47,196 nucleotides of DNA from Candidatus Melainabacteria bacterium (GTDB lineage: Bacteria > Vulcanimicrobiota > JABDET01): contig JABDET010000004.1 in NCBI GenBank assembly GCA_013286945.1, positions 1 through 47,196 on the forward strand, in the 5' to 3' direction. This document shows, piece after piece, positions 12 to 46,555 of the stretch; position 1 is the first letter of the stretch, and the number at the start of each line of letters is the position of its first letter. Position numbers and translations under genes: made by a program. The notes beneath the pieces are model-generated. The model was not told the DNA's origin. It searched no databases and saw nothing but the letters and a program-made list of their open reading frames with translations.

Positions 12-66
12 GTCAACTTTCAAGTGGCTCGAACAATTGACAGAAATGCCCCGTGCATGCTAAACT
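12..66 (+). promoter_or_regulatory. Promoter with upstream activator-like box (site A)
   Basis: A GTCAAC hexamer lies at 12-17, followed by TTGACA at 37-42 and an extended -10, TGCTAAACT, with the hexamer TAAACT at 61-66 (18-bp spacer). The first hexamer starts 49 bp before the -10, the same distance as in the other box-containing promoters in the window. The second half-site is poor here. GTCGAA at 2-7 may be a further upstream unit. The -35 and -10 are near consensus and are seen directly. The activator role of the hexamer is inferred. Confidence 0.55.
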
Positions 67-3719: not shown

Positions 3720-5878
<2,159 letters not shown>

Positions 5879-11070: not shown

Positions 11071-12261
11071 CTAGTTCGAAGCGACGGCTTGGGTGTCGGC
11101 CTGAAGGAGCTTAAGGTACCCTTCCCGTTGTTCAGGGGATAACGTTTTCATGACATTCAAGCCAGATTTTTGACGCATGGCTTGATCCATTGAGATCTTT
11201 CCTTCACTGGCTTGTTGGTCAATCATCCCTTGAAGATAGGCAAAGGTATCTCGACCCATCACTTGACCTGTAACGAACGCTTCCCGATTATCGATCGTGA
11301 AAAACATGACATGGGTCTTCTCACTTAAACGTTTTGCCATATCCAATTTTTCTTGGGGGGATGTTTCTTTATACAAATCGACTGCTTCTTTTGGAAAGGC
11401 TAAAAGCGTTGTACGCAGGTGATCATCACGCGAAATTTTTTCCCACACCACATCGGAAACTCCGAAAATGTTGGAACTCGGCGAACTTTGTGTCACTGCC
11501 CCAACAGAGCCTGTCGGGGGAAGCGAGGAGTGTTCTTCCGAAGGGGGTGTAAGCTTCGGAACCGCAGAGGGAACGGCGGCATTTGGCGCTGGAGAAGCGG
11601 ACGGAATCTCTTGATTCCCCTTCACGACTTGGGAAGGAGATGAAATGCCTTCATCGGCTTTTGAGATAGTGCCAAGGGGAGGCACCCCTAAGTTGCCTTC
11701 CGTTGACTCGATAACCAACGGCTTTGCTGGCTCTTCGGAATCCAGCTTGCTTGTTGAGTTTTTCGTGAGGTCTTCGGAATTTGTAACCACGGTCGGAATA
11801 GCGACTTTGGGCTCAGCGGATGAAGCTGGACTGAGAGTTTCAGTTTTTAGACTTATCCCCTCTGCCTTTGAGGAAGTCGGGTTGGCAATCGGAAGTGGGA
11901 GAATATCATGCGACTCTGCTGCTGCCACCACCGCATTTTCTGCTCTGGTCCGGAGCTCAGCGGTAAGCGAATCATATTCATCTTGATACTTATGAAGCAG
12001 ATCCGTATTCCCCGTTTCGATGGCCTGGCGAATTTGCTTGCTGATGTCTTTCCGAGCATTTCGGAGATCATCCTCGGCCGTTGTCTTTAACCCCTGTCCA
12101 AAAAGCTTTTCCGCATCCGTATTCGGCCCAAACTTCTGAAGCAAGCTCCCAAAGGAACTGGTAGCGTTTGAGTCGAGAGCCGGAACTGAATTCGTGCCTG
12201 GAGGAGAATCTTGCTTTAATGCAGTGACACCCGTTTTCGGTTTTACCACGTTTGATTCCAT
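11071..12261 (-). CDS. Low-complexity 396-aa protein, unknown
   Basis: The protein starts at ATG 12261, 8 nt after AAGGAGGT. Residues about 60-110 are charged and helical (RNARKDISKQIRQAI), residues 125-285 are Ser/Pro/Ala/Thr/Glu-rich and probably disordered, and residues 290-396 form a compact conserved-looking domain (VWEKISRDDHLRTTLLAFP ... MFFTIDNREAFVTGQVMG). There is no signal peptide or membrane segment. The promoter has the repeated GTTCAC-like boxes shared with other unknown genes in the window. The function is unknown. The architecture resembles a scaffold or secreted substrate, but nothing proves it. Confidence 0.7.
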   Translation of the reverse strand: MESNVVKPKTGVTALKQDSPPGTNSVPALDSNATSSFGSLLQKFGPNTDAEKLFGQGLKTTAEDDLRNARKDISKQIRQAIETGNTDLLHKYQDEYDSLTAELRTRAENAVVAAAESHDILPLPIANPTSSKAEGISLKTETLSPASSAEPKVAIPTVVTNSEDLTKNSTSKLDSEEPAKPLVIESTEGNLGVPPLGTISKADEGISSPSQVVKGNQEIPSASPAPNAAVPSAVPKLTPPSEEHSSLPPTGSVGAVTQSSPSSNIFGVSDVVWEKISRDDHLRTTLLAFPKEAVDLYKETSPQEKLDMAKRLSEKTHVMFFTIDNREAFVTGQVMGRDTFAYLQGMIDQQASEGKISMDQAMRQKSGLNVMKTLSPEQREGYLKLLQADTQAVASN

Positions 12262-12373: not shown

Positions 12374-12438
12374 TTTAACATAATTATAACATCTAGTTAA
12401 CATATTTTTAACAATTTATACGGCCCATGTCGTATAAT
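12374..12438 (+). promoter_or_regulatory. Four-unit tandem box and promoter (site C)
   Basis: Four hexamers, TTTAAC (12374), TATAAC (12385), GTTAAC (12396) and TTTAAC (12407), each followed by A, repeat at exactly 11-bp intervals. A consensus -10, TATAAT, follows at 12433-12438. The second unit starts 48 bp before the -10, in phase with the boxes at the other promoters. The regularity is seen directly. Binding by an OmpR/PhoB-type dimer is inferred from the one-turn spacing. Confidence 0.65.
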
Positions 12439-12714: not shown

Positions 12715-12731
12715 CTCCGCACGATGCGGAG
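12715..12731 (+). repeat. Short perfect hairpin before the kinase gene
   Basis: CTCCGCA (12715-12721) and TGCGGAG (12725-12731) pair around a 3-nt loop. There is no T-tract, so it is not an intrinsic terminator. It encloses the first possible ATG (12724) of the next gene and could affect translation. Confidence 0.45.
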
Positions 12732-12765
12732 AAGGAATCCTCTTCAAAAAGAGAAAGATTGCGTC

Positions 12766-13833
12766 ATGCAAGAGCAATCGCATTTTCTTTTGCAACTCAA
12801 GAGTTATTTGATTAGCCAGTGGAAACAATTTGGACTCTCAGGATCTCCAGCAGGCTTAACGTATCGAATCCGACAAACCCCTCACGGCAGAGCCATTGAC
12901 CGAAGCAGGCTCGTCGCCTTGTGGTTTCACGACAATCCAGAAAAACCTCAAGTGGTTACCAAGTGGGTCCTCAACAAAAACTTTGCTTCGTTTATCGTTC
13001 AGGAACATCGTCACGCACAATGGCTTTATGAAAAGAAGAAACACCGCTTTATTCCAAGACCACTTGCTTGCACCGAGATTTTGGGAATGCCAGTCCTCAT
13101 CGAAGAAGCAGTGCTAGGGCGATCGTTTGCGCATCAGATCTTAAGCCTCCCCTTCGGCCGCCCAAACGGAGAAGCTACAATTGAAGCCACCTTTCAAACC
13201 ATGTTTGAAAGGGCAGGTGAAATCCTTTCCAAAATACAAGACCCCCTTCGCCCGATTCCAAAAAAGGATTTTCTTCAATACTTTGAACCGTACGTTTCAC
13301 GAACGCAAACCATTCTTGAATGGAACACGGAAAAGCGTAAAAAAATCGATGCGGTTCTTCAATCAGGCATTTCCGATCCCGTTTCAGGTTCGGGTAAAAC
13401 GATGATTGTCGGAGACTTTGCACCGCAAAACATTCTTGAAGGGAAAAAAGGCCTCTTTCTAATTGATCTTGAGTTTTCTCTTGAATCCCCGAGCGCCTTC
13501 CTCGATCCCTTAGCCTTTGTTTACAGCCTGTTCCGTTTTTCCGTTCCTGACTTCTGGAAAAAAGAACCTGATGAGGTTGTCAAGTTGTTCGTGCAAGACC
13601 TTCTTGAAGGCAAGAGTGGAATCGCTCCCCTCGCTCACAAATTCATGATCTCTCGAAAGGTTTCTAAAGAACATCTTTTGTGGTACTGGCTCGTTTTCTT
13701 CATTCATGAAACGACTTTCCAAAATTTTCTCTCCGAAGCATTTCCCCCCAACCACCGAAAGCTACTGGATGGAATTATCGCTACGTTGCTTCAACGATTG
13801 GAAAAGTCAGGTTCGTCTTCGAAGCGTGGTTAG
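12766..13833 (+). CDS. APH/choline-kinase-like phosphotransferase
   Basis: A protein-kinase-fold small-molecule phosphotransferase, 355 residues from ATG 12766 (369 if ATG 12724 is used; neither has a strong ribosome binding site). The catalytic loop reads VGDFAPQNIL, matching HGDxxxxNxL with Gly in place of the usual first His-Gly pair, followed by the metal-binding FLIDLEFS. A basic N-terminal lobe (VTKWVLNKNFASFIVQEHR) and the RPLACTEILGMPVLIEE hinge fit the APH family. The substrate is unknown. Choline, sugar or aminoglycoside are all possible. It converges on cdsA with a 4-bp overlap. Confidence 0.7.
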   Translation: MQEQSHFLLQLKSYLISQWKQFGLSGSPAGLTYRIRQTPHGRAIDRSRLVALWFHDNPEKPQVVTKWVLNKNFASFIVQEHRHAQWLYEKKKHRFIPRPLACTEILGMPVLIEEAVLGRSFAHQILSLPFGRPNGEATIEATFQTMFERAGEILSKIQDPLRPIPKKDFLQYFEPYVSRTQTILEWNTEKRKKIDAVLQSGISDPVSGSGKTMIVGDFAPQNILEGKKGLFLIDLEFSLESPSAFLDPLAFVYSLFRFSVPDFWKKEPDEVVKLFVQDLLEGKSGIAPLAHKFMISRKVSKEHLLWYWLVFFIHETTFQNFLSEAFPPNHRKLLDGIIATLLQRLEKSGSSSKRG

Positions 13834-18523: not shown

Positions 18524-18578
18524 GTTAACAATTTGGCAACTTCAAACGATTGAAAGTGTTGAAGCGCTATGCTATGAT
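18524..18578 (+). promoter_or_regulatory. Box-containing promoter (site D)
   Basis: GTTAAC (18524-18529) and GGCAAC (18535-18540) are 11 bp apart. TTGAAA is at 18550-18555 and, 17 bp later, the extended -10 TGCTATGAT has its hexamer at 18573-18578. The first unit starts 49 bp before the -10. This is the clearest copy of the shared architecture and drives the propeller gene at 18613. Confidence 0.75.
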
Positions 18579-18612: not shown

Positions 18613-19755
18613 ATGAAACCTACACCGGTTGTCCGACTCCATCCGCTTTACACAAAGGAGGGAAAATTTGTTTTCTCACCCGTTTATTCTCACGTGGGTA
18701 GCAGGATGGTGCTTACCACGCAAGAGGCTGGAGGACAAAAACTCACGGTGGTGGATTCGAGCAATGGCAACCTTCGTGCAGAAATTGATTTAAGTGGGTC
18801 CCAACTTAGATCTTCTCCAGTCTGGTCTCCTGATGACACGAGCATTGCCTTTTTAGCTCACCAAAAGAAAGAAAAGAAAACAACAAACCTTCATCTCGTA
18901 GATTCTGAAACCGGGAAACCAAGAATTAATCAAAGTTTTCCAGTTAGACAGTCAACACGCTTGGTCTTTGCACCCGATGGAAAACAAATTGCCTTTGGAG
19001 AGCATTGTCCCGGTAAGCTTCACAGGATTGAGATCCCTTCAGGATCTCACGTGCCAATAGAGGTCGGGAATTGGCTCATCTCCACCCCGAGTTATTCTCC
19101 AGATGGAAGCAATTTAGCGTTTACAGCTTATGATATATCTAAAGAAACTGGAAAAGTGCACTTAGTTGCTTCTGGAAGTGAAAAGCCGCACTTTGAAGTA
19201 GAGAGCCCTCATTCCAAGGTCGGACAATATCTTAATGGTGATCCAGTTTTTTCTCCAAATGGAACCGAGATAGCGCTTGTAGGTGACGGAAACTTCTATC
19301 GGGTCGACCCTAGAAATGGAGAAATTGATCCATTGTTGACCTACCGCGAAAACGATGTTATTTGCAACAAACAGCCGATCTATGCCGCTGATGGCACTCT
19401 CGCGATTGCTACAGTACAAGGAAAAATTATCGTTTTCCGCGCAAACGCAGAAAGGAAACAAAGCGTGATGTACGCTGGATCGGGTTATTTTTTTGGATCC
19501 TCTCCCGCCTTCTCCACGGACGGTCAACTTCTCAGTATTGTGGGAGTGACCCCTGATAAGGAATCATACTGCCACAGTCAACTTTTCTTTAACTCCATCA
19601 GCGAAGAGCGCTTTTTTTCGCAATTGCTCTCGGTTTTACGGGGACACGAGGTCCCCGAAGATCCTCCTGTTTTTCATCCGAACTGGGAGCAAATTGCGTA
19701 CTCTTCAAAAAACCGCAATCTGATTTCTATCGAAGCCTTCCAAAGGGAATCCTAG
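18613..19755 (+). CDS. Cytoplasmic TolB-like beta-propeller protein
   Basis: A 380-residue protein built of PD40/WD40-like repeats of the TolB kind. Repeats of the form SPDG-x-x-(I/L)-A-(F/V) recur at least six times: VWSPDDTSIAFLA, VFAPDGKQIAFGE, SYSPDGSNLAFTA, VFSPNGTEIALVG, AFSTDGQLLSIVG and VFHPNWEQIAYSS. There is no signal peptide or lipobox, so unlike TolB it should stay in the cytoplasm. It follows the strong box-containing promoter and an AAAGGAG ribosome binding site. The likely role is a protein-protein interaction platform. The partner is unknown. Confidence 0.8.
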   Translation: MKPTPVVRLHPLYTKEGKFVFSPVYSHVGSRMVLTTQEAGGQKLTVVDSSNGNLRAEIDLSGSQLRSSPVWSPDDTSIAFLAHQKKEKKTTNLHLVDSETGKPRINQSFPVRQSTRLVFAPDGKQIAFGEHCPGKLHRIEIPSGSHVPIEVGNWLISTPSYSPDGSNLAFTAYDISKETGKVHLVASGSEKPHFEVESPHSKVGQYLNGDPVFSPNGTEIALVGDGNFYRVDPRNGEIDPLLTYRENDVICNKQPIYAADGTLAIATVQGKIIVFRANAERKQSVMYAGSGYFFGSSPAFSTDGQLLSIVGVTPDKESYCHSQLFFNSISEERFFSQLLSVLRGHEVPEDPPVFHPNWEQIAYSSKNRNLISIEAFQRES

Positions 19756-29309: not shown

Positions 29310-29867
29310 TCAACCTTCCTCTTTTGATCCTTTTCTTGTAACCAGAAGCATGACAGTAAACGCAGCTAGGCCAGCTCCATCCATAGGCCAATCGTATAAA
29401 GCGCCAAGTCGCCTCAAGTTGGCTTGCTCCATCTGTTCTTGTTCGGGGAAGGTAACCGACAGACTGCTGACAGGTTCCCTGAGCTTGATAGTCGTGGTGT
29501 ATTCTACTCTGTTATTCCGAAAGTTTGGATTATTCGCCCTGTAGACTACGCCATTCTCATATGAAACAGAAGAGCGCGCTGTAATGACCGGATTCCCTCC
29601 TCCCGTGTAAGTGGTCACTCGTTCAATGGATTCTACCTGGGGAAGCTCGTTCTTGAGATGCATTTCAACCGGATACGAGAAGCGACGTCTGACTCCACCT
29701 TCGTCTTCAAAAAAACGATCATCCTGGGGTTGAATGACCCGCACATGATTTACCGCCAATCGTTCAAGATCGTTATATGGACGTAGGTTCTCCACGGCTT
29801 GATATCCACCCCATCCACCAGCCCCTGCTCCAAGCAAAACTGCTCCAACCTTTATCCAATTGTTCAT
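29310..29867 (-). CDS. Two-helix membrane protein, unknown
   Basis: A 185-residue protein with a Gly-rich N-terminal membrane helix (VGAVLLGAGAGGWGGYQAV), a soluble beta-rich middle (ERVTTYTGGGNPVITARSSV; YTTTIKLREPVSSLSVTFP) and a second helix near the C-terminus (GAGLAAFTVMLLVT). The soluble part is probably periplasmic. ATG 29867 is chosen because AAAGGAG lies 8 nt upstream. The earlier GTG at 29876 overlaps that site. It is driven by a good copy of the shared box promoter and is convergent with uvrC. No family is recognised. Confidence 0.75.
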   Translation of the reverse strand: MNNWIKVGAVLLGAGAGGWGGYQAVENLRPYNDLERLAVNHVRVIQPQDDRFFEDEGGVRRRFSYPVEMHLKNELPQVESIERVTTYTGGGNPVITARSSVSYENGVVYRANNPNFRNNRVEYTTTIKLREPVSSLSVTFPEQEQMEQANLRRLGALYDWPMDGAGLAAFTVMLLVTRKGSKEEG

Positions 29868-29896: not shown

Positions 29897-29951
29897 ATCT
29901 TAGCAGAAAAGTCTCTCCAAATCAAGCTTCATTTGTAACCAACTTGTTAAA
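29897..29951 (-). promoter_or_regulatory. Box-containing promoter (site L)
   Basis: On the minus strand, TTTAAC (29951-29946) and GGTTAC (29940-29935) are 11 bp apart, TTGATT is at 29925-29920 and, 17 bp later, the extended -10 TGCTAAGAT has its hexamer at 29902-29897. The distance from first unit to -10 is 49 bp, identical to site D. Confidence 0.7.
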
Positions 29952-32433: not shown

Positions 32434-32489
32434 GTTAACAACTTGGCAAAATCTGGATGATGATTTTCATCAGCGCAAGGGTATATAAT
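32434..32489 (+). promoter_or_regulatory. Box-containing promoter (site E)
   Basis: GTTAAC (32434-32439) and GGCAAA (32445-32450) are 11 bp apart, and the 16-bp block GTTAACAACTTGGCAA differs from site D in one base. The consensus -10 TATAAT is at 32484-32489, 50 bp from the first unit. The -35 region is poor. Confidence 0.75.
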
Positions 32490-32507: not shown

Positions 32508-33107
32508 ATGCTAAAGGGAATTAAAATTCTTACTTCGTTACTTCTTCTCTGTTGGTGTTCCTTTACCAGTGCTTTCGCTGATAGTTATGGCGGGAGTAAC
32601 GCTATCCAAACTCCGCAGGTTATCGTTACCACCGTAACCATTAATTCGGTGAACATACCACAACTCCAATTAGCTAACATGACCCCTACCATGACTCAGG
32701 TTTCCCCCTCAACGAGTGTCAATGTGCCCAACATTACTATCCTTACGCCGCAAATGCAGAATTTTGCCCCACAACAAAGCGGTGTTTATCTCCAGCCCAT
32801 CTACGTCCCTACCGTAACGGTTCCAGAAGTTTCCTTTCCAGGCGTTTCCTTCACGAGTTCTCTTCCGATGTCATCGGGGGCTAGCTATTACACCCCTGGT
32901 CAATCTGAGACGTTTGTAGGCTCTTATGTCATCATGAATCATCTGATGGGAATACGATTTGACAATCTCCGCTTTACTAACCCGGATCACCGACGCAACG
33001 TTATCACGACGAGTGAATCAGCTAAGAAAGAGCTTGCACGTTTTGGCGAGACCTCTCACCTTAAGTCTCCGCTTGAAACAGAGTTCCTCTCCAAAGTAAA
33101 GCACTAG
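32508..33107 (+). CDS. Secreted Val/Pro/Thr-rich protein, unknown
   Basis: A 199-residue protein with a clear Sec signal peptide (ILTSLLLLCWCSFTSAFA, cleavage after AFA near residue 24). The mature part is rich in Val, Pro, Thr, Ser and Gln with loosely repeated P-x-V-x-(V/I)-x-x-V strands (TPQVIVTTVTINSVNIPQL, VPTVTVPEVSFPGVSF), suggesting an extended beta structure. The last 60 residues are charged (RFTNPDHRRNVI). AGGAGAGAGGTG gives a strong ribosome binding site. It is periplasmic or surface exposed. No family is recognised. Confidence 0.75.
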   Translation: MLKGIKILTSLLLLCWCSFTSAFADSYGGSNAIQTPQVIVTTVTINSVNIPQLQLANMTPTMTQVSPSTSVNVPNITILTPQMQNFAPQQSGVYLQPIYVPTVTVPEVSFPGVSFTSSLPMSSGASYYTPGQSETFVGSYVIMNHLMGIRFDNLRFTNPDHRRNVITTSESAKKELARFGETSHLKSPLETEFLSKVKH

Positions 33108-38108: not shown

Positions 38109-38420
38109 TTATCCTCTCAATTGGTTCGCTTCATCCAGATTCACGGTATTCGAACTTCGATACAAAGAAAGCACAATCGCTAAACCCACGGTGACCTCTG
38201 CTGCCGCAATGGCAATGACAAAAAGCGGGAAGGCCTGTCCCGCAAGAAACGCCACATCCCTAAAGCGATACGAAAGGGCCACAAAATTGATGTTGGCTGC
38301 ATTAAACATGAGCTCAACACTCATTAAAACCGAAATCCCATTTTTTCGCGTCATCGCGCCGTAGAGACCAATGACAAAAAGAAGCGCTGAAAGGATCACA
38401 TAATGGACGACTCCAATCAT
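38109..38420 (-). CDS. nuoK: NADH-quinone oxidoreductase subunit K
   Basis: A small three-helix subunit of the complex I membrane arm, 103 residues from ATG 38420. It has GLYGAMTRKNGISVLMSVELMFNA cut to its core VELMFNAANINFV with the essential Glu, and FVIAIAAAEVTVGLAI with the second conserved Glu. Its ATG overlaps the nuoJ stop as ATGA. Confidence 0.95.
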   Translation of the reverse strand: MIGVVHYVILSALLFVIGLYGAMTRKNGISVLMSVELMFNAANINFVALSYRFRDVAFLAGQAFPLFVIAIAAAEVTVGLAIVLSLYRSSNTVNLDEANQLRG

Positions 38421-38911
38421 GCTTCTTCGCTCTCTTTCCCAAGAGCCATGGCGCCGATCAAGGCCACAAGAAGGACTACAGAAATGATTTCGAAGGGAAG
38501 GACATACACTTGCATCAAAACTGAACCAATGGCTTGGAGGAGATTCTCCCAAACCGTCTTGATCGGAGAATCAGGGAGCGTCAAGGCGCTTCGTATCATC
38601 AGAAACGCCATCATGGCCGAAACTGGAATTCCGATAAGCCAAAGCGAATTGTGAGTTCGAGAGGTGAGAGACCAAGACCGCTGCGTCATCATGATTCCAA
38701 ACAGTATGAGAACAGCAATGGCGCCAGAGTAGATCAAGAGCTGAGTTGCAGCAAGGAAATAATTGTGAAGGCTTACGTAAATCCCCGCCACCCCCAAAAA
38801 AGTACCAATCAAACAAAGCCCGGAATGAAAAATGTTTCGTACCGTCACCACCAAAAGAGCAAATCCAACAATAAGTGTAGCCAGCACATAAAAAACGAAC
38901 GGGTGGATCAT
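38417..38911 (-). CDS. nuoJ: NADH-quinone oxidoreductase subunit J
   Basis: A five-helix membrane subunit of complex I, 164 residues from ATG 38911. It has HSGLCLIGTFLGVAGIYVSL and the conserved LIYSGAIAVLILFGIMM. A longer in-frame ORF to 39022 lacks a binding site and would run through the promoter boxes. This is the first gene of the nuoJKLMN block. nuoA-I are absent from the window, so complex I genes are split in this genome. Confidence 0.93.
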   Translation of the reverse strand: MIHPFVFYVLATLIVGFALLVVTVRNIFHSGLCLIGTFLGVAGIYVSLHNYFLAATQLLIYSGAIAVLILFGIMMTQRSWSLTSRTHNSLWLIGIPVSAMMAFLMIRSALTLPDSPIKTVWENLLQAIGSVLMQVYVLPFEIISVVLLVALIGAMALGKESEEA

Positions 38912-38958: not shown

Positions 38959-39016
38959 GATTTACCCTTTTGGGCAAAGTTAACAAAATGTTCATCAGGA
39001 TTAACATTTTGTTCAT
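38959..39016 (-). promoter_or_regulatory. nuoJ promoter and shared box array
   Basis: Four units, GTTAAC (38979), GTTCAT (38990), ATTAAC (39000) and GTTCAT (39011) on the plus strand, lie 11, 10 and 11 bp apart, and their complements face nuoJ. On the minus strand TTGTTA (38986-38981) and TAAATC (38964-38959) with a 16-bp spacer form a possible nuoJ promoter overlapping the outermost unit. A bound protein could repress nuoJ or activate the plus-strand transcript. Confidence 0.5.
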
Positions 39017-39055
39017 GGACAATTGGACAAGCGCATGTTACTCTTGAGGTAGGAT
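39000..39055 (+). promoter_or_regulatory. Box-containing promoter (site F)
   Basis: ATTAAC (39000-39005) and GTTCAT (39011-39016) are 11 bp apart, and TAGGAT at 39050-39055 is 50 bp from the first unit. The -35 (TTGGAC near 39023) is badly spaced, so activation would be needed. Confidence 0.45.
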
Positions 39056-39443: not shown

Positions 39444-39477
39444 CGATACGTGATTACCCTACCTGTGTTGACGAAAT

Positions 39478-39532
39478 GTTCACCAATCGATAACAATTAT
39501 GGCTTGATCCAGGCCCAACCTTCGGCTATACT
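39478..39532 (+). promoter_or_regulatory. Box-containing promoter (site G)
   Basis: GTTCAC (39478-39483) and GATAAC (39489-39494) are 11 bp apart. TTGATC (39504-39509) and TATACT (39527-39532) have a 17-bp spacer. The first unit to -10 distance is 49 bp and to -35 is 26 bp, the same as sites D and L. Confidence 0.75.
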
Positions 39533-39555: not shown

Positions 39556-40026
39556 TTGACCACTAACCCAGCAATTCAGCACGGTCTCATCTATGAAAGA
39601 ATCCCAGCGCATCGACATCCGAACGGAGGAGGATGGGTTGCTGATGAAGGACCACAGATTGAAGACACCGTTTTCATCGACGGGTTCGCGAAAGTTATTG
39701 GAAATGTAAAGGCAAGTGGTAAAGTGGAAATCACGGGTACTAGTGTCATTCGAGGTGAGTCACCGGGGAGTGTTACCTTGCAAGACAGTGCATGTATCCA
39801 AGATTCTGACATTAACAGCACCCTTTGCGACATATTTATCGGAGGAAGCGCATCCATCGAAAATAGTTTGATCTCCGGCAATGTCCGTGCCAGTGGTCAT
39901 GTAAGAATAGTTAATTCAAAAATTGAGGGGGGTACCTACGATGGAGATGGGCACTGGAGCGCTGGGCGTCAAATGATTCTTAAGTTCAAGAATCCGATTA
40001 AACCAAAAACCAACCGGAACGGCTAG
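39556..40026 (+). CDS. Left-handed beta-helix (hexapeptide-repeat) protein, unknown
   Basis: A 156-residue protein from TTG 39556, which sits 7 nt after AGGAGGTG. The longer in-frame TTG 39532 lies inside the -10 box. Residues 30-140 show hexapeptide-like repeats of the left-handed beta-helix type (VFIDGFAKVIGNVKASGKVE, then VTLQDSACIQDSDI, IFIGGSASIENSLISGN, VRASGHVRIVNSKIEGG). A Gly-Asp-Gly-His-Trp motif and a basic tail follow. It has no acyltransferase active-site His pattern that I can see, so a structural or adaptor role is as likely as an enzyme. Confidence 0.7.
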   Translation: MTTNPAIQHGLIYERIPAHRHPNGGGWVADEGPQIEDTVFIDGFAKVIGNVKASGKVEITGTSVIRGESPGSVTLQDSACIQDSDINSTLCDIFIGGSASIENSLISGNVRASGHVRIVNSKIEGGTYDGDGHWSAGRQMILKFKNPIKPKTNRNG

Positions 40027-42546: not shown

Positions 42547-42613
42547 GTTCATGAATTGTTAACGACTCTTTGGCCCTTCTTCGCTGGACTTCATTTGAAA
42601 TTCATGGTATCGT
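42547..42613 (+). promoter_or_regulatory. Box-containing promoter (site H)
   Basis: GTTCAT (42547-42552) and GTTAAC (42558-42563) are 11 bp apart. TGGACT (42585-42590) and the extended -10 TGGTATCGT with hexamer 42608-42613 have a 17-bp spacer. GTTAAC to -10 is 50 bp. The block GAAAAGTTCATGAATTGTTA closely resembles that at 44942-44961. Confidence 0.65.
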
Positions 42614-42644: not shown

Positions 42645-42887
42645 ATGAGCATGAAGCCAATTCAAACAAGCCCTATCACTCTTCCTCGATGGTTTCGGCG
42701 CCTCTCTTCCAATCACGAGCTTGATACTTTCACCAGAAAAGTCTTTGGAAATGATCTCACAACCGTTGGGAACTCGAATGGCTCGCTTCACGGGATAAGA
42801 GAGGACATGATGCAGTTGAAGATTACATCATTGTTTCCACCCTATTATCACCGTACTCGACCTGATTCATTTTTGACTGCCGAATAA
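42645..42887 (+). CDS. Unknown 80-aa protein
   Basis: The protein is short, basic and soluble, beginning MSMKPIQTSPITLPRWFRRL. ATG 42645 is chosen because AAGGAG (42633-42638) lies 6 nt upstream. The longer in-frame ATG at 42570 lies upstream of the -10 box. No Cys, membrane segment or recognised family. It is the first of a run of lineage-specific genes and lies directly upstream of a CxxC-HG family gene, possibly in one transcript. Confidence 0.6.
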   Translation: MSMKPIQTSPITLPRWFRRLSSNHELDTFTRKVFGNDLTTVGNSNGSLHGIREDMMQLKITSLFPPYYHRTRPDSFLTAE

Positions 42888-43664: not shown

Positions 43665-44936
43665 ATGGTTAACTCACTTCACCCACATGCATCTCGAGGA
43701 ATGAACGGACAGCCAAGACGGAGCTCGTTCTTTTCTGAGTCGGTCTCTAAGGGACATCCAGATAAAGTAGCCGATCAGATTGCCGATGCCGTTGTGGATG
43801 CTGTTCTTGCAAAAGACCCGAATGGTCGAGTGGCTTGTGACGCCATGTTCTGGCACGGTGGTGTGGTGGCTGCCGGTCAGATCAGTACTAAAGCAGGGAT
43901 AGATTATGGTGGCTACAGAACAGCCATCATCAACACGTTAAGAGAGATCGGCTATACGGGCCCCTCCGCTTCCCTTGATGCTGACACTTGCGCCGTTTTC
44001 CTGTCTTTTGATCCGCAATCTCCCGACATTGCCCAAGGAGTGGATCAGTCTCATGAAGCGAGAACAGGCCAAGCATCAACCGATGAGCTCTCCTCACGAG
44101 GCGCCGGAGACTCAGGAATGATGTTTGGGTTTGCTTGCAGAGAAACCCCTGAGCTTATGCCTCTCCCCATCACCCTTGCCAACAAGCTTGTTAGGAGACT
44201 CGACGATCTTCGCCTCTATGAAAAGAGCGTTCTTCCTTATCTTGGTCCAGTCGGCAAAGCTCAAGTTACCGTGCATTACGCTGGATATCAACCCACCGGC
44301 GTTAGCGAGGTGGTCTTAAGCGCTGAACATGCCGACGCGGTTTCCCAAAGGACAATCCGCCGCGATCTGATCAAACATGTCATTACCCCAATCATTCCGA
44401 GTGCACTCTTTAGGTCAACGAAGATTCTGATTAACCCAACAGGCCGATTCGTGATCGGTGGGCCAGTTGCCGATACGGGGCTCACTGGACGAAAGATTAT
44501 CGTCGACACCTACGGCGGAATGGCAAGACATGGCGGAGGAGCATTTTCTGGCAAAGATCCAACCAAGGTTGACCGAACCGCCAGTTACATGGCTAGGTAT
44601 ATCGCAAAAAATATCGTAGCTGCAGGCTTGGCAGAGCGGTGCGAAGTGCAACTGGCCTACGCGATCAGTGTGGCTAATCCGAGAGACGTTCAAGTTGACA
44701 CGTTCGGTACCGAAACAATATCGCGAGAGAAAATAGTACGATTAATTAGACAACATTTTGATATGAGTGTCGGGGCCATGATTCGTGATCTTGACCTCAG
44801 AAAGCCAAACTACAGGCAGTTGGCAGCCTACGGGCACTTTGGTCGCCCTGAACTCGATCTCCCTTGGGAACGACTTGATAAAGCCGAAATCCTGGGCGAT
44901 GCTGCAAAACTTCGCCAAAAAACGAAGACCGCCTAG
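43665..44936 (+). CDS. metK: S-adenosylmethionine synthetase
   Basis: MetK makes S-adenosylmethionine from methionine and ATP. It has [20 protein letters not shown] near residue 25, [18 protein letters not shown] near 144 (usual GAGDQG has Gln where this has Ser), [20 protein letters not shown] cut at KVDRTASYM near 300, and [16 protein letters not shown]. It is 423 residues including a 20-residue N-terminal extension not usual in the family. ATG 43701 is an alternative start. There is no SAM riboswitch that I can recognise. It sits alone among unknown genes. Confidence 0.94.
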
Positions 44937-44946
44937 CCGTCGAAAA

Positions 44947-45000
44947 GTTCATAAATTTTTAACGTGTGATCCGTAGACAGCCCCCCTGTTTTGCTATAGA
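44947..45000 (+). promoter_or_regulatory. Box-containing promoter (site J)
   Basis: GTTCAT (44947-44952) and TTTAAC (44958-44963) are 11 bp apart. GTAGAC (44973-44978) and the extended -10 TGCTATAGA with hexamer 44995-45000 have a 16-bp spacer. The first unit to -10 distance is 48 bp. The flanking block matches site H. Confidence 0.65.
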
Positions 45001-45033
45001 CTTAGTGATAAGTAGCTGAGAAAGGGGAGACTC

Positions 45034-45762
45034 ATGTCACAGATTAGCGATTCTAAATCATCTTTGCTTACGTCCTTGGACCTTCACGCTCTATATCCCG
45101 CGACTACAAGCACTTCGAGGGACAGACAACCGGGCTCTTCTTCATCTGGCTTTGATCGTTTTGCCTCTTCCAAGCAAAACAGCCTTGGCCCAATAACAAT
45201 TGAGCAAATCCAATTCTTTGGCGATGGGAGAGAAATGATCATTCAAGACAATCGAGGGAATACCCACGCTTTTCACCAGAGAGAAGAGTCAGCAGGCCAG
45301 AGACGCGGACAAAGTTTTCAGCTTGATTGGTCTATCCCAGAAATCGCTTCAGCTTTAGGAATCCCGATCCCCCACCTCACCAGCCAAGCGGGTCGTGTCT
45401 GGGCTGAGTACTTCGGCAGGTACCGGGAAGATATTTTGCATAAGAGGCGGATTGGCTTCGAAACTGCGAACTTCATCGCCCGCTGGGGTAATAAGCAACT
45501 GCTCCCTCACTATATTGAAATGAAATTCGTTAAGTATGACGGCAAAACTGATTTGTGCGATTATTGCCAAAACCCCATTCAACCCGTGAGTATTCGCATT
45601 CAAAACCATCTCATTAAAAAAGCTACAGTCATCACGAGCCTCGATGTGCATTCCCTGGCCCAACACGGAGAAAACGAACCTCGGCATGCTTCGGGACGTC
45701 CTGGACACATTGACGTGAAGTTGTTAGAAGAAGTACTTTCTCTCAACTCGCCGTCCCCTTAA
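45034..45762 (+). CDS. CxxC-HG family protein 2, unknown
   Basis: A 242-residue protein. Residues 1-50 are Ser-rich and probably disordered. Residues 50-165 contain a mixed region (ITIEQIQFFGDGREMIIQD; WAEYFGRYREDILHKRRIGF). The C-terminal domain has DLCDYCQNPIQPV (CxxC near 170-173) followed by LDVHSLAQHGENEPRH. It is a paralogue of the proteins at 42950 and 45965 by this pattern and by the shared YIEMKFVK / YIQVTKTE segment before the CxxC. AAAGGGGAG precedes the ATG. It is driven by site J. Confidence 0.78.
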   Translation: MSQISDSKSSLLTSLDLHALYPATTSTSRDRQPGSSSSGFDRFASSKQNSLGPITIEQIQFFGDGREMIIQDNRGNTHAFHQREESAGQRRGQSFQLDWSIPEIASALGIPIPHLTSQAGRVWAEYFGRYREDILHKRRIGFETANFIARWGNKQLLPHYIEMKFVKYDGKTDLCDYCQNPIQPVSIRIQNHLIKKATVITSLDVHSLAQHGENEPRHASGRPGHIDVKLLEEVLSLNSPSP

Positions 45763-45779: not shown

Positions 45780-45836
45780 TTTAACACACCCTTAACCTCT
45801 TGTTGATTGTTTTCCAGGATCGGTCGATGATACAAT
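45780..45836 (+). promoter_or_regulatory. Box-containing promoter (site K)
   Basis: TTTAAC (45780), CTTAAC (45791) and GTTGAT (45802) form three units 11 bp apart. TTGTTT (45807-45812) and the extended -10 TGATACAAT with hexamer 45831-45836 have an 18-bp spacer. The first unit to -10 distance is 51 bp. Confidence 0.6.
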
Positions 45837-45964: not shown

Positions 45965-46555
45965 ATGTCTGACCATTCTGTAAGTCCCATCCCTCCATGG
46001 GGAAGCGTCACTAGGTATGGAGACGGAGCGTTCCTTAAAGAAGAAGAGGCTGCTCTCTTCAACAATAAAAAACCTGAAATCATTGAAACCACGCCCCCAC
46101 GGATGAATACCGACTCAGCCACTTTCACGAAACAAGCCGAGCAAAGCCTGAAGAATCGACCGTCACCACCCCCCATTGCCCAATGGGTTAGAACGGAGCG
46201 AAAAGCTAACCAGAGTCTAGGCGTCCAAATCCAACGGCTTCTTCGAAGTGGGTTTGCCAGAAATGGTCTCCCAAGCTACATCCAAGTAACCAAAACCGAA
46301 AACCGTCACGCTCATTATGAGAAATGTCCAGAATGCGGGGGTAAAGTGCGTCAAGGATCTCTCACGATCACGAACCAGCACCTTCGAGACGATGAGGGTA
46401 ATCCAAGAAAGGTGGCACTTCCCCACTTCAATTTACACTGCCTGGCCGAACATGGACAAAAGTTTCCCCGTCTCCCATCACGCCAACCTGGGTACACCCC
46501 TGTCGACTCGCTCAGAGCCGTTATAACGGGAACGAGAGTCCGAGAACGATCGTAG
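45965..46555 (+). CDS. CxxC-HG family protein 3, unknown
   Basis: A 196-residue protein with a disordered N-terminal half (TPPRMNTDSATFTKQAEQ) and the shared C-terminal domain: YIQVTKTENRHAHYEKCPEC, with CxxC near 121-124, then NLHCLAEHGQKFPRLPSRQP. The basic patch RKANQSLGVQIQRLLRSG precedes it. AAGGAGAGG gives a strong ribosome binding site before ATG 45965. A zinc-binding role is inferred from the Cys and His pattern. Binding of nucleic acid is possible but not shown. Confidence 0.78.
   Translation: MSDHSVSPIPPWGSVTRYGDGAFLKEEEAALFNNKKPEIIETTPPRMNTDSATFTKQAEQSLKNRPSPPPIAQWVRTERKANQSLGVQIQRLLRSGFARNGLPSYIQVTKTENRHAHYEKCPECGGKVRQGSLTITNQHLRDDEGNPRKVALPHFNLHCLAEHGQKFPRLPSRQPGYTPVDSLRAVITGTRVRERS

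Follow-up and report, generated by a model that had tools for sequence, protein, structure and literature searches.

Boxes recognised by WalR, RpaB and other OmpR-family regulators are direct repeats one helical turn apart, the HLR1 element of RpaB having a period shorter than 11 bp. Promoter elements of type III secretion regulons are recognised by HrpL, a sigma factor, and by HrpX, an AraC-type activator. Effectors are found by scanning for the box; in the case of the hrp box, a single element marks the genes of a type III apparatus together with its effectors and also some genes that are not effectors (PMC3879358). In PHO boxes, direct-repeat units of 11 nt stand in tandem and are bound head-to-tail (PMC4415409), and in the non-flagellated Lysobacter enzymogenes the retained flagellar export system still exports FlgD and is itself required for the secretion of antifungal toxins (PMC9927559). 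Here, we describe a promoter element from a 47,196-nucleotide stretch of DNA (JABDET010000004.1 of assembly GCA_013286945.1; hereafter, the window), which is contig C4 of a source genome of 1.73 Mb in 106 contigs (67% complete) and whose lineage, judged from sequence, is the phylum Eremiobacterota (Vulcanimicrobiota). The element, hereafter the box, is a tandem of GTTMAY hexamers 11 bp apart, followed at a fixed distance by a -10 hexamer. It stands before the genes of an export machine and before about 100 mostly unknown genes, and machine and cargo are therefore probably switched on together: the repeats are probably an operator of the PhoB/OmpR type that drives a flagellar-type secretion system lacking a filament, together with the candidate cargo of that system.

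Like the hrp box of Pseudomonas syringae and the PIP box of Xanthomonas (the targets of HrpL and HrpX, respectively), the box is a single element ahead of a type III apparatus and candidate cargo; unlike them, it is built of OmpR/PhoB-type 11-bp direct repeats at sigma-70 promoters, the apparatus is of the flagellar type, and the bearers are Eremiobacterota. With the PHO box of PhoB and PhoP it shares two or more 11-nt direct units (PMC4415409), close to or over the -35, but it reads GTTAACATTTT, compared with CTTAACC at the genome's own pstS, and its targets are not phosphate genes. Our candidate regulator falls in the WalR/RpaB subfamily, whereas the box differs in sequence from the boxes of these regulators and lies before secretion and unknown genes. 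As in L. enzymogenes, flagellar export genes occur without a flagellum; here, however, they form a separate syntenic operon of many families, which in some genomes is accompanied by a true flagellum and which has a promoter code of its own and a large candidate cargo set. In the literature searched, no paper describing a type III system was found for Eremiobacterota or Xenobia.

Spacing, orientation and phasing of the repeats

A sequence-only reading of the window had named sites A to L, with neighbouring GTTAAC-like units usually 11 bp apart, a -10 starting 48–51 bp after the first unit and, in D, G and L, a -35 at +26. All of these sites were located where it had placed them, the -10 offsets of nine fell within this range, and -35-like hexamers were found at +26 in the three sites (the sites are listed in the last section). 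The 11-bp spacing was likewise borne out beyond the window, in a sample of 1.16 Mb of the source genome that was scanned in stretches, with genes called by a simple coding-potential script. In the 444 kb sampled first, GTTMAY pairs numbered 15 at spacing 11 and 0–3 at other spacings. Over the whole sample there were 20 exact GTT[AC]A[CT] pairs at 11 bp, 19 of them intergenic, against 0–6 at other spacings, exact-pattern counts being an underestimate of the number of boxes; with one mismatch allowed, 63 intergenic pairs were found at 11 bp compared with about 10 at most other spacings, and the two-turn spacings of 22 bp (27 pairs) and 21 bp (25 pairs) were raised as well. Across the entire genome, GTTAACN5GTTMAY gave 15 matches versus none for the reversed control.

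The position of the -10 is equally regular. TATAAT-like hexamers downstream of the units peak at +49/50 and at +60–62, the latter being 49 plus one more unit. A promoter model composed of three units and the -10, with a threshold of at least 17 bits, found 76 sites, only one of them genic, against 4 in reversed sequence; as 15 of its own sites had served to train the model, the reversed-sequence control counts more than the raw scores. The window scanned by itself with three mismatches allowed yields 111 matches where 81 are expected, an excess that is weak because of the number of mismatches, and this mild figure is what an explanation by chance, or by the composition of AT-rich intergenic DNA, could draw upon. 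However, the 11-bp spacing stands alone among its neighbours, the reversed controls are near zero, and the promoter of one operon is conserved across families (see below), so that we regard this explanation as refuted by the spacing controls and the phylogenetic conservation. The repeats, their spacing and the phasing of the -10 are real.

Arrays hold between three and six units, spaced by about 11 bp, the six-unit case being C6:13363-13410, and the second units are often GGCAAC, GGCAAT or GGAAAT. The -35 of box promoters is poor, and the -10 is often preceded by GG. As GTTAAC is self-complementary, exact sites double as palindromes, and a repressor binding GTTAACA-N3-TGTTAAC might be supposed instead of a protein bound to direct repeats; GTTAACN5GTTAAC equals its own reverse complement, and for this reason a position weight matrix iterated freely with a low threshold wandered off to a broad, AT-rich palindrome; spacing counts and orientation by the -10 took its place. 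The asymmetric units GTTCAT and GTTCAC, however, hold GTTMAY in one orientation, the same as that of the GTTAAC units, and together with arrays of up to six units they argue for direct repeats and not a palindrome, while the fixed place upstream of a weak -35 suits activation. A palindrome-binding repressor is thus very improbable. The suggestion of OmpR/PhoB-like direct repeats one turn apart, made for the window, holds genome-wide, as do the fixed distance to the -10 and the preference for genes without a known family: the tandem direct repeats lie about one helical turn apart, with a unique peak at 11 bp, and to judge by the sequence this layout is that of an OmpR/PhoB-type activator.

A flagellar-type export operon behind a conserved promoter

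One box, at C2:6052, has its -10 (TAAAAT) at +49 and lies upstream of an export operon (C2:6145-23278) with the order flgB-like, flgC, fliE, fliF, fliG, fliH, fliI, fliJ, a lytic transglycosylase gene preceded by a second box, fliK, flgF/G-like, fliM, fliN, fliO, fliP, fliQ, fliR, flhB and flhA. A Pfam check of ten of these genes gave the expected family for nine, with no family for the flgB-like gene and a match at the cut-off only for the flgF/G-like one; the other genes were named by order and similarity. An injectisome (non-flagellar type III system) has a secretin and a needle and lacks FliG and rod genes of the FlgB/C type; the operon has homologues of FliG, FliM, FliE and FlgC/FlgFG, which indicate an apparatus of the flagellar type. 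Synteny of the operon, complete or partial, extends to G001, G002, G003, G004, G008, G010 and G017, where FlhA is 60–76% identical, whereas the other FlhA locus of the source genome (C82) is only 44% similar.

The promoter before flgB has the same arrangement of four units in five genomes, which belong to four families, and thus, as with the hrp and PIP boxes, the element precedes a type III structural operon in all five:

Source genome: GTTTACATGTT-TGTAACAAGTT-GATAATCAATC-GTTAATAGCAT-AGTAC-TAAAAT, four 11-bp units, -10 at +49
G002: GTTTACAAGTT-TTTAACAAATT-GATTATGAAAA-GTTAACACCCA-TGTAT-TATGAT, four 11-bp units, -10 at +49
G004: GTTAACAAAAT-TTTAACAATTT-GATAATAAGTT-TTTAATATCCA-TGCCT-TATGAT, four 11-bp units, -10 at +49
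G017: GTTAACACATT-GTTAACATTTT-GCTAATAAAAC-TGTAATATCCG-TTAAG-TATGAT, four 11-bp units, -10 at +49
G010: GTTAACATGTT-GCTAATAATAT-ATCAATAATGT-TTTTG-TATCAT, three aligned units, the fourth just beyond at G010:C83:19987; -10 at +49 with this unit added

In G008 and G010 a box is also found ahead of the flgF/G-like gene, and G017 has one ahead of an FlhA paralogue that stands alone. Among 80 sites of relatives, the -10 offset peaks at 49 (8 sites) and 50 (7 sites), with a second group at 38/39. When 118 genomes of the phylum, sorted into families f1–f16, were compared, boxes were common in f1–f7, f9–f12 and f15 and nearly absent from f8, f13, f14 and f16. GC content was rejected as the cause of the missing f13 boxes, as the box-bearing f10 is equally GC-rich. 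Three classes are listed for the phylum (PMC9758169), and the families with boxes probably belong to Xenobia and Eudoremicrobiia. The assignment to the phylum comes from MetK: the enzyme of one member, G052, matches that of 'Candidatus Eremiobacter sp. RRmetagenome_bin22' at 100% identity. In the families related to Candidatus Eremiobacter the box and its phasing are hardly present.

No flagellin was found in G001, G003, G005–G008, G016 and G017, and neither FliD, the filament cap, nor MotB_plug, of the stator, was found above the cut-off in G001, G003, G005, G006, G008, G016 and G017. Several of these genomes are 97–98% complete, and the lack of flagellin, FliD and MotB_plug rules out that the apparatus there assembles an ordinary swimming flagellum. 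The source genome, G002, G010 and G013, by comparison, have genes for flagellin as well as FliD-like and MotB-like ones.

Three further observations concern the FlhA-like (FHIPEP) genes and their surroundings. Up to 10–12 of them are found in each of G017 and G016, some stand-alone and one boxed, in the company of no flagellin. A small helical protein is conserved directly after flhA (L168:8796-9131, L171:6230-6481, L175:32-265) and is possibly a rod, needle or export-gate partner. In many genomes of f8 and f16 the FHIPEP group at about 850 bits is accompanied by another one, scoring about 640 bits, which could belong to another type III system.

The candidate regulator and the genes behind the boxes

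The product of C25:16391-17080, a response regulator, has orthologues of 72–90% identity in nearly all box-bearing families and of at most 55% in f8, f14 and f16 (G044 being not fully scored in this comparison), the only such pattern among the OmpR-family regulators of the genome. Its gene comes directly after yfiH, and the next gene is usually kinase-like or of the PAS type. From this co-occurrence, the C25 product appears to be the likeliest regulator of the box. Two other regulators were considered and rejected: C11, a PhoB paralogue, was rejected for the group as a whole, having orthologues only in the family of the source genome, and C57 is matched at 63–66% in f1 only and at about 46% elsewhere. 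C25 is also a better candidate than the phosphate regulator C79, whose gene adjoins pstS and of which C11 is a paralogue.

The sequence-only reading had likened the box to actinobacterial PHO boxes. As an explanation this fails, since the genome's own pstS promoter carries CTTAACC-type repeats and the lineage is Eremiobacterota, not Actinobacteria. An ordinary PHO regulon, in which the boxes would be PhoB sites and their genes would answer phosphate starvation, could draw on three points: PHO boxes, too, are tandem repeats, bound head-to-tail, the genome has PhoB (C79) and C11 in the right subfamily, and 5'-nucleotidases are among the box genes of G017 and G010. Yet the repeats of pstS, beside phoB, are two mismatches off the box consensus, C11 is limited to the family of the source genome, the conserved target is the export operon, and phosphate functions occur in few box genes in a Pfam scan of 59 box proteins, so that phosphate acquisition genes do not dominate the regulon. 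We consider a PHO regulon decidedly unlikely. Upstream of pstS no GTTMAY pair within one mismatch was found, the region upstream of phoB being off the contig; the pstS promoter itself (L144:643-757, in C79) has CTTAACC repeats at 11 bp (TTTAACCGCTCCTTAACCTTTCCTTAG), unlike the GTTAACA box.

The genes downstream of the sites had been described as nearly all lineage-specific, and in the window a Pfam family is indeed found for only 1 of 10 box-driven genes compared with 28 of 30 other genes (Fisher p=2e-6). Across the 1.16-Mb sample, the first 25 residues of 62 box-driven proteins contain 28% S/T/N/P versus 20% in 867 others (p=2e-9) and are poor in hydrophobic residues, with membrane-like helices in 4/62 and 226/867, respectively. 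The reading-frame rule for small genes may let in false open reading frames. The enrichment persists among independently called genes (37 vs 862, p=3e-5), where it is also stronger at the N-terminus than in the remainder of the protein (p=0.01). The domains of 5'-nucleotidases and of C11, C39 and C92 peptidases are usually exported. Among the box genes of relatives are a 5'-nucleotidase in G017 (by Pfam, with similar sequences in G010), a clostripain-family (C11) peptidase in G003, a C92-type amidase in G017 and a C39-like peptidase in G004, and these domains sit behind polar leaders, not signal peptides. Such leaders on normally exported domains are the strongest non-experimental hint of a non-Sec exit. 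A DxVxLSxxA leader motif was dropped, being absent from the box proteins of the source genome and present in 3 of 47 proteins of relatives.

The Pfam scan of the 59 box proteins also revealed an adhesin of the two-partner secretion (TPS) type (C93) and three sigma-70-like proteins; at L125 (C32):9458-13442, tandem box promoters precede proteins with sigma-70 region 2/4 domains. The adhesin and the box genes with Sec signals, together with the extreme conservation of the C25 regulator, as expected of an essential protein, would suit a general site of a WalR/RpaB-like envelope regulator, for which the secretion operon would be one of many envelope or surface targets. Against this, the cell-wall and housekeeping genes of the window have no scoring site, in line with the earlier observation on housekeeping genes, N-terminal hydrophobic helices are depleted, and most box proteins are soluble and without a family. 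A general envelope site is therefore rather unlikely.

For the operator of a secretion system and its cargo, as favoured here, we infer that the C25 product binds the box and activates rather than represses, and that the products are secreted, presumably to a recipient. A signal would reach the regulator, two dimers of which would bind head-to-tail on four 11-bp units, at about -61 to -23, whereas two units may be enough at many cargo promoters. The units at +0/+11 (in full arrays also +22/+33) would seat it just upstream of and over the -35, where it would make up for the poor hexamer, and RNA polymerase with sigma-70 would be brought to the -10 at +49. Such a regulon would comprise the flgB-to-flhA export apparatus and about 100 further promoters, mostly of soluble, polar, signal-less proteins, and the box genes would include cargo and accessories of the apparatus, made together with it.

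Several observations weigh against this interpretation. Family f13 has a C25 orthologue (65–78%) and FlhA, yet almost no exact boxes, and G003 (f2, 62% complete) has boxes without a close C25 orthologue; the source genome being 67% complete, another regulator may be missing from it. The polar composition spans whole box proteins, beyond the N-terminus, and some box genes have Sec, Tat or TPS signals or a cytosolic look (sigma factors, an oxidoreductase), so not all are cargo.

A wider proposal, which we put forward tentatively and with somewhat less confidence than the operator itself, is that Eremiobacterota outside the Candidatus Eremiobacter-type families possess a dedicated secretion machine that derives from the flagellum but has neither filament nor motor, and that one widely conserved promoter code (four GTTMAY units, a -10 at +49 and one response regulator) marks both the machine and the whole lineage-specific cargo, which would then be readable from DNA alone. 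If so, a flagellum-derived machine would be used for something besides swimming, and with a code that marks candidates for secretion, hundreds of genes without a family in this uncultured phylum would become a testable set. Predatory behaviour has been suggested for marine members of the phylum (PMC9259500), and the secretion regulon may bear on it.

Sites and genes in the window

The unknown genes of the window gain a common identity, as they look like one regulon with the secretion machine. The sites and the genes that they face are as follows:

12..66, +: site A, GTCAAC (12), weak second unit AGTGGC (23), -35 TTGACA (37-42), -10 TAAACT (61-66) at +49; weak, at the window edge
11071..12261, -: 396-aa protein facing array C, no Pfam family, Ser/Pro/Asn-rich N-terminus
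12374..12438, +: site C, TTTAAC/TATAAC/GTTAAC/TTTAAC at 12374, 12385, 12396 and 12407; -10 TATAAT (12433-12438), offset 48
12724..13833, +: 369-aa protein without a Pfam family, first long gene downstream of array C
18524..18578, +: site D, GTTAAC N5 GGCAAC (second unit weak); -35 TTGAAA at +26; -10 TATGAT at +49 (18573-18578)
18613..19755, +: 380-aa WD40/PD40 beta-propeller protein without a signal peptide, downstream of D
29310..29867, -: 185-aa protein downstream of L, no Pfam family, hydrophobic N-terminus
29897..29951, -: site L, TTTAAC N5 GGTTAC; -35-like hexamer at +26; -10 TAAGAT at +49
32434..32489, +: site E, GTTAAC N5 GGCAAA (second unit weak); -10 TATAAT at +50
32508..33107, +: 199-aa protein downstream of E, Sec-type signal peptide, no Pfam family
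38979..39044, +: site F, weak hexamers GTTAACAAAATGTTCAT and ATTAACATTTTGTTCAT, 21 bp apart; weak -10 TACTCT
39467..39532, +: site G, GTTGAC/GTTCAC/GATAAC at 11 bp; -35 TTGATC; -10 TATACT at +49 from 39478
39556..40026, +: 156-aa protein downstream of G, sub-threshold bactofilin-like match only
42547..42613, +: site H, GTTCAT N5 GTTAAC, weak second unit TTTGGC; -10 TATCGT at +61/+50
42645..42887, +: 80-aa open reading frame downstream of H, polar N-terminus
44947..45002, +: site J, GTTCAT N5 TTTAAC; -35-like TAGACA; -10 TAGACT at +50
45034..45762, +: 242-aa protein downstream of J, Ser/Thr-rich N-terminus, no Pfam family
45780..45836, +: site K, TTTAAC/CTTAAC/GTTGAT; -10 TACAAT at +51; under the model threshold
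45965..46555, +: 196-aa protein downstream of K, no Pfam family

In the promoter model the named sites score at least 18 bits except K and A (A, at the edge, was unscored), and G is the top-scoring one (41.4 bits), with its -35-like hexamer at +26. K and A are the weakest sites, and the -10 of F is poor. K is nearer to the CTTAACC repeats of the genome's pstS than to the GTTAACA box. F adjoins nuoJ (38417-38911, minus strand) and could serve either direction, and overlapping matches in C also point to the minus strand, towards 11071-12261. A GTTAAC at 5506 lies within gyrB and was left out of the count. The MetK encoded in the window (43665-44936) is a divergent second copy, 60% identical to the MetK of Candidatus Eremiobacter, and a closer one (68%) is encoded at C40:10129-11301.
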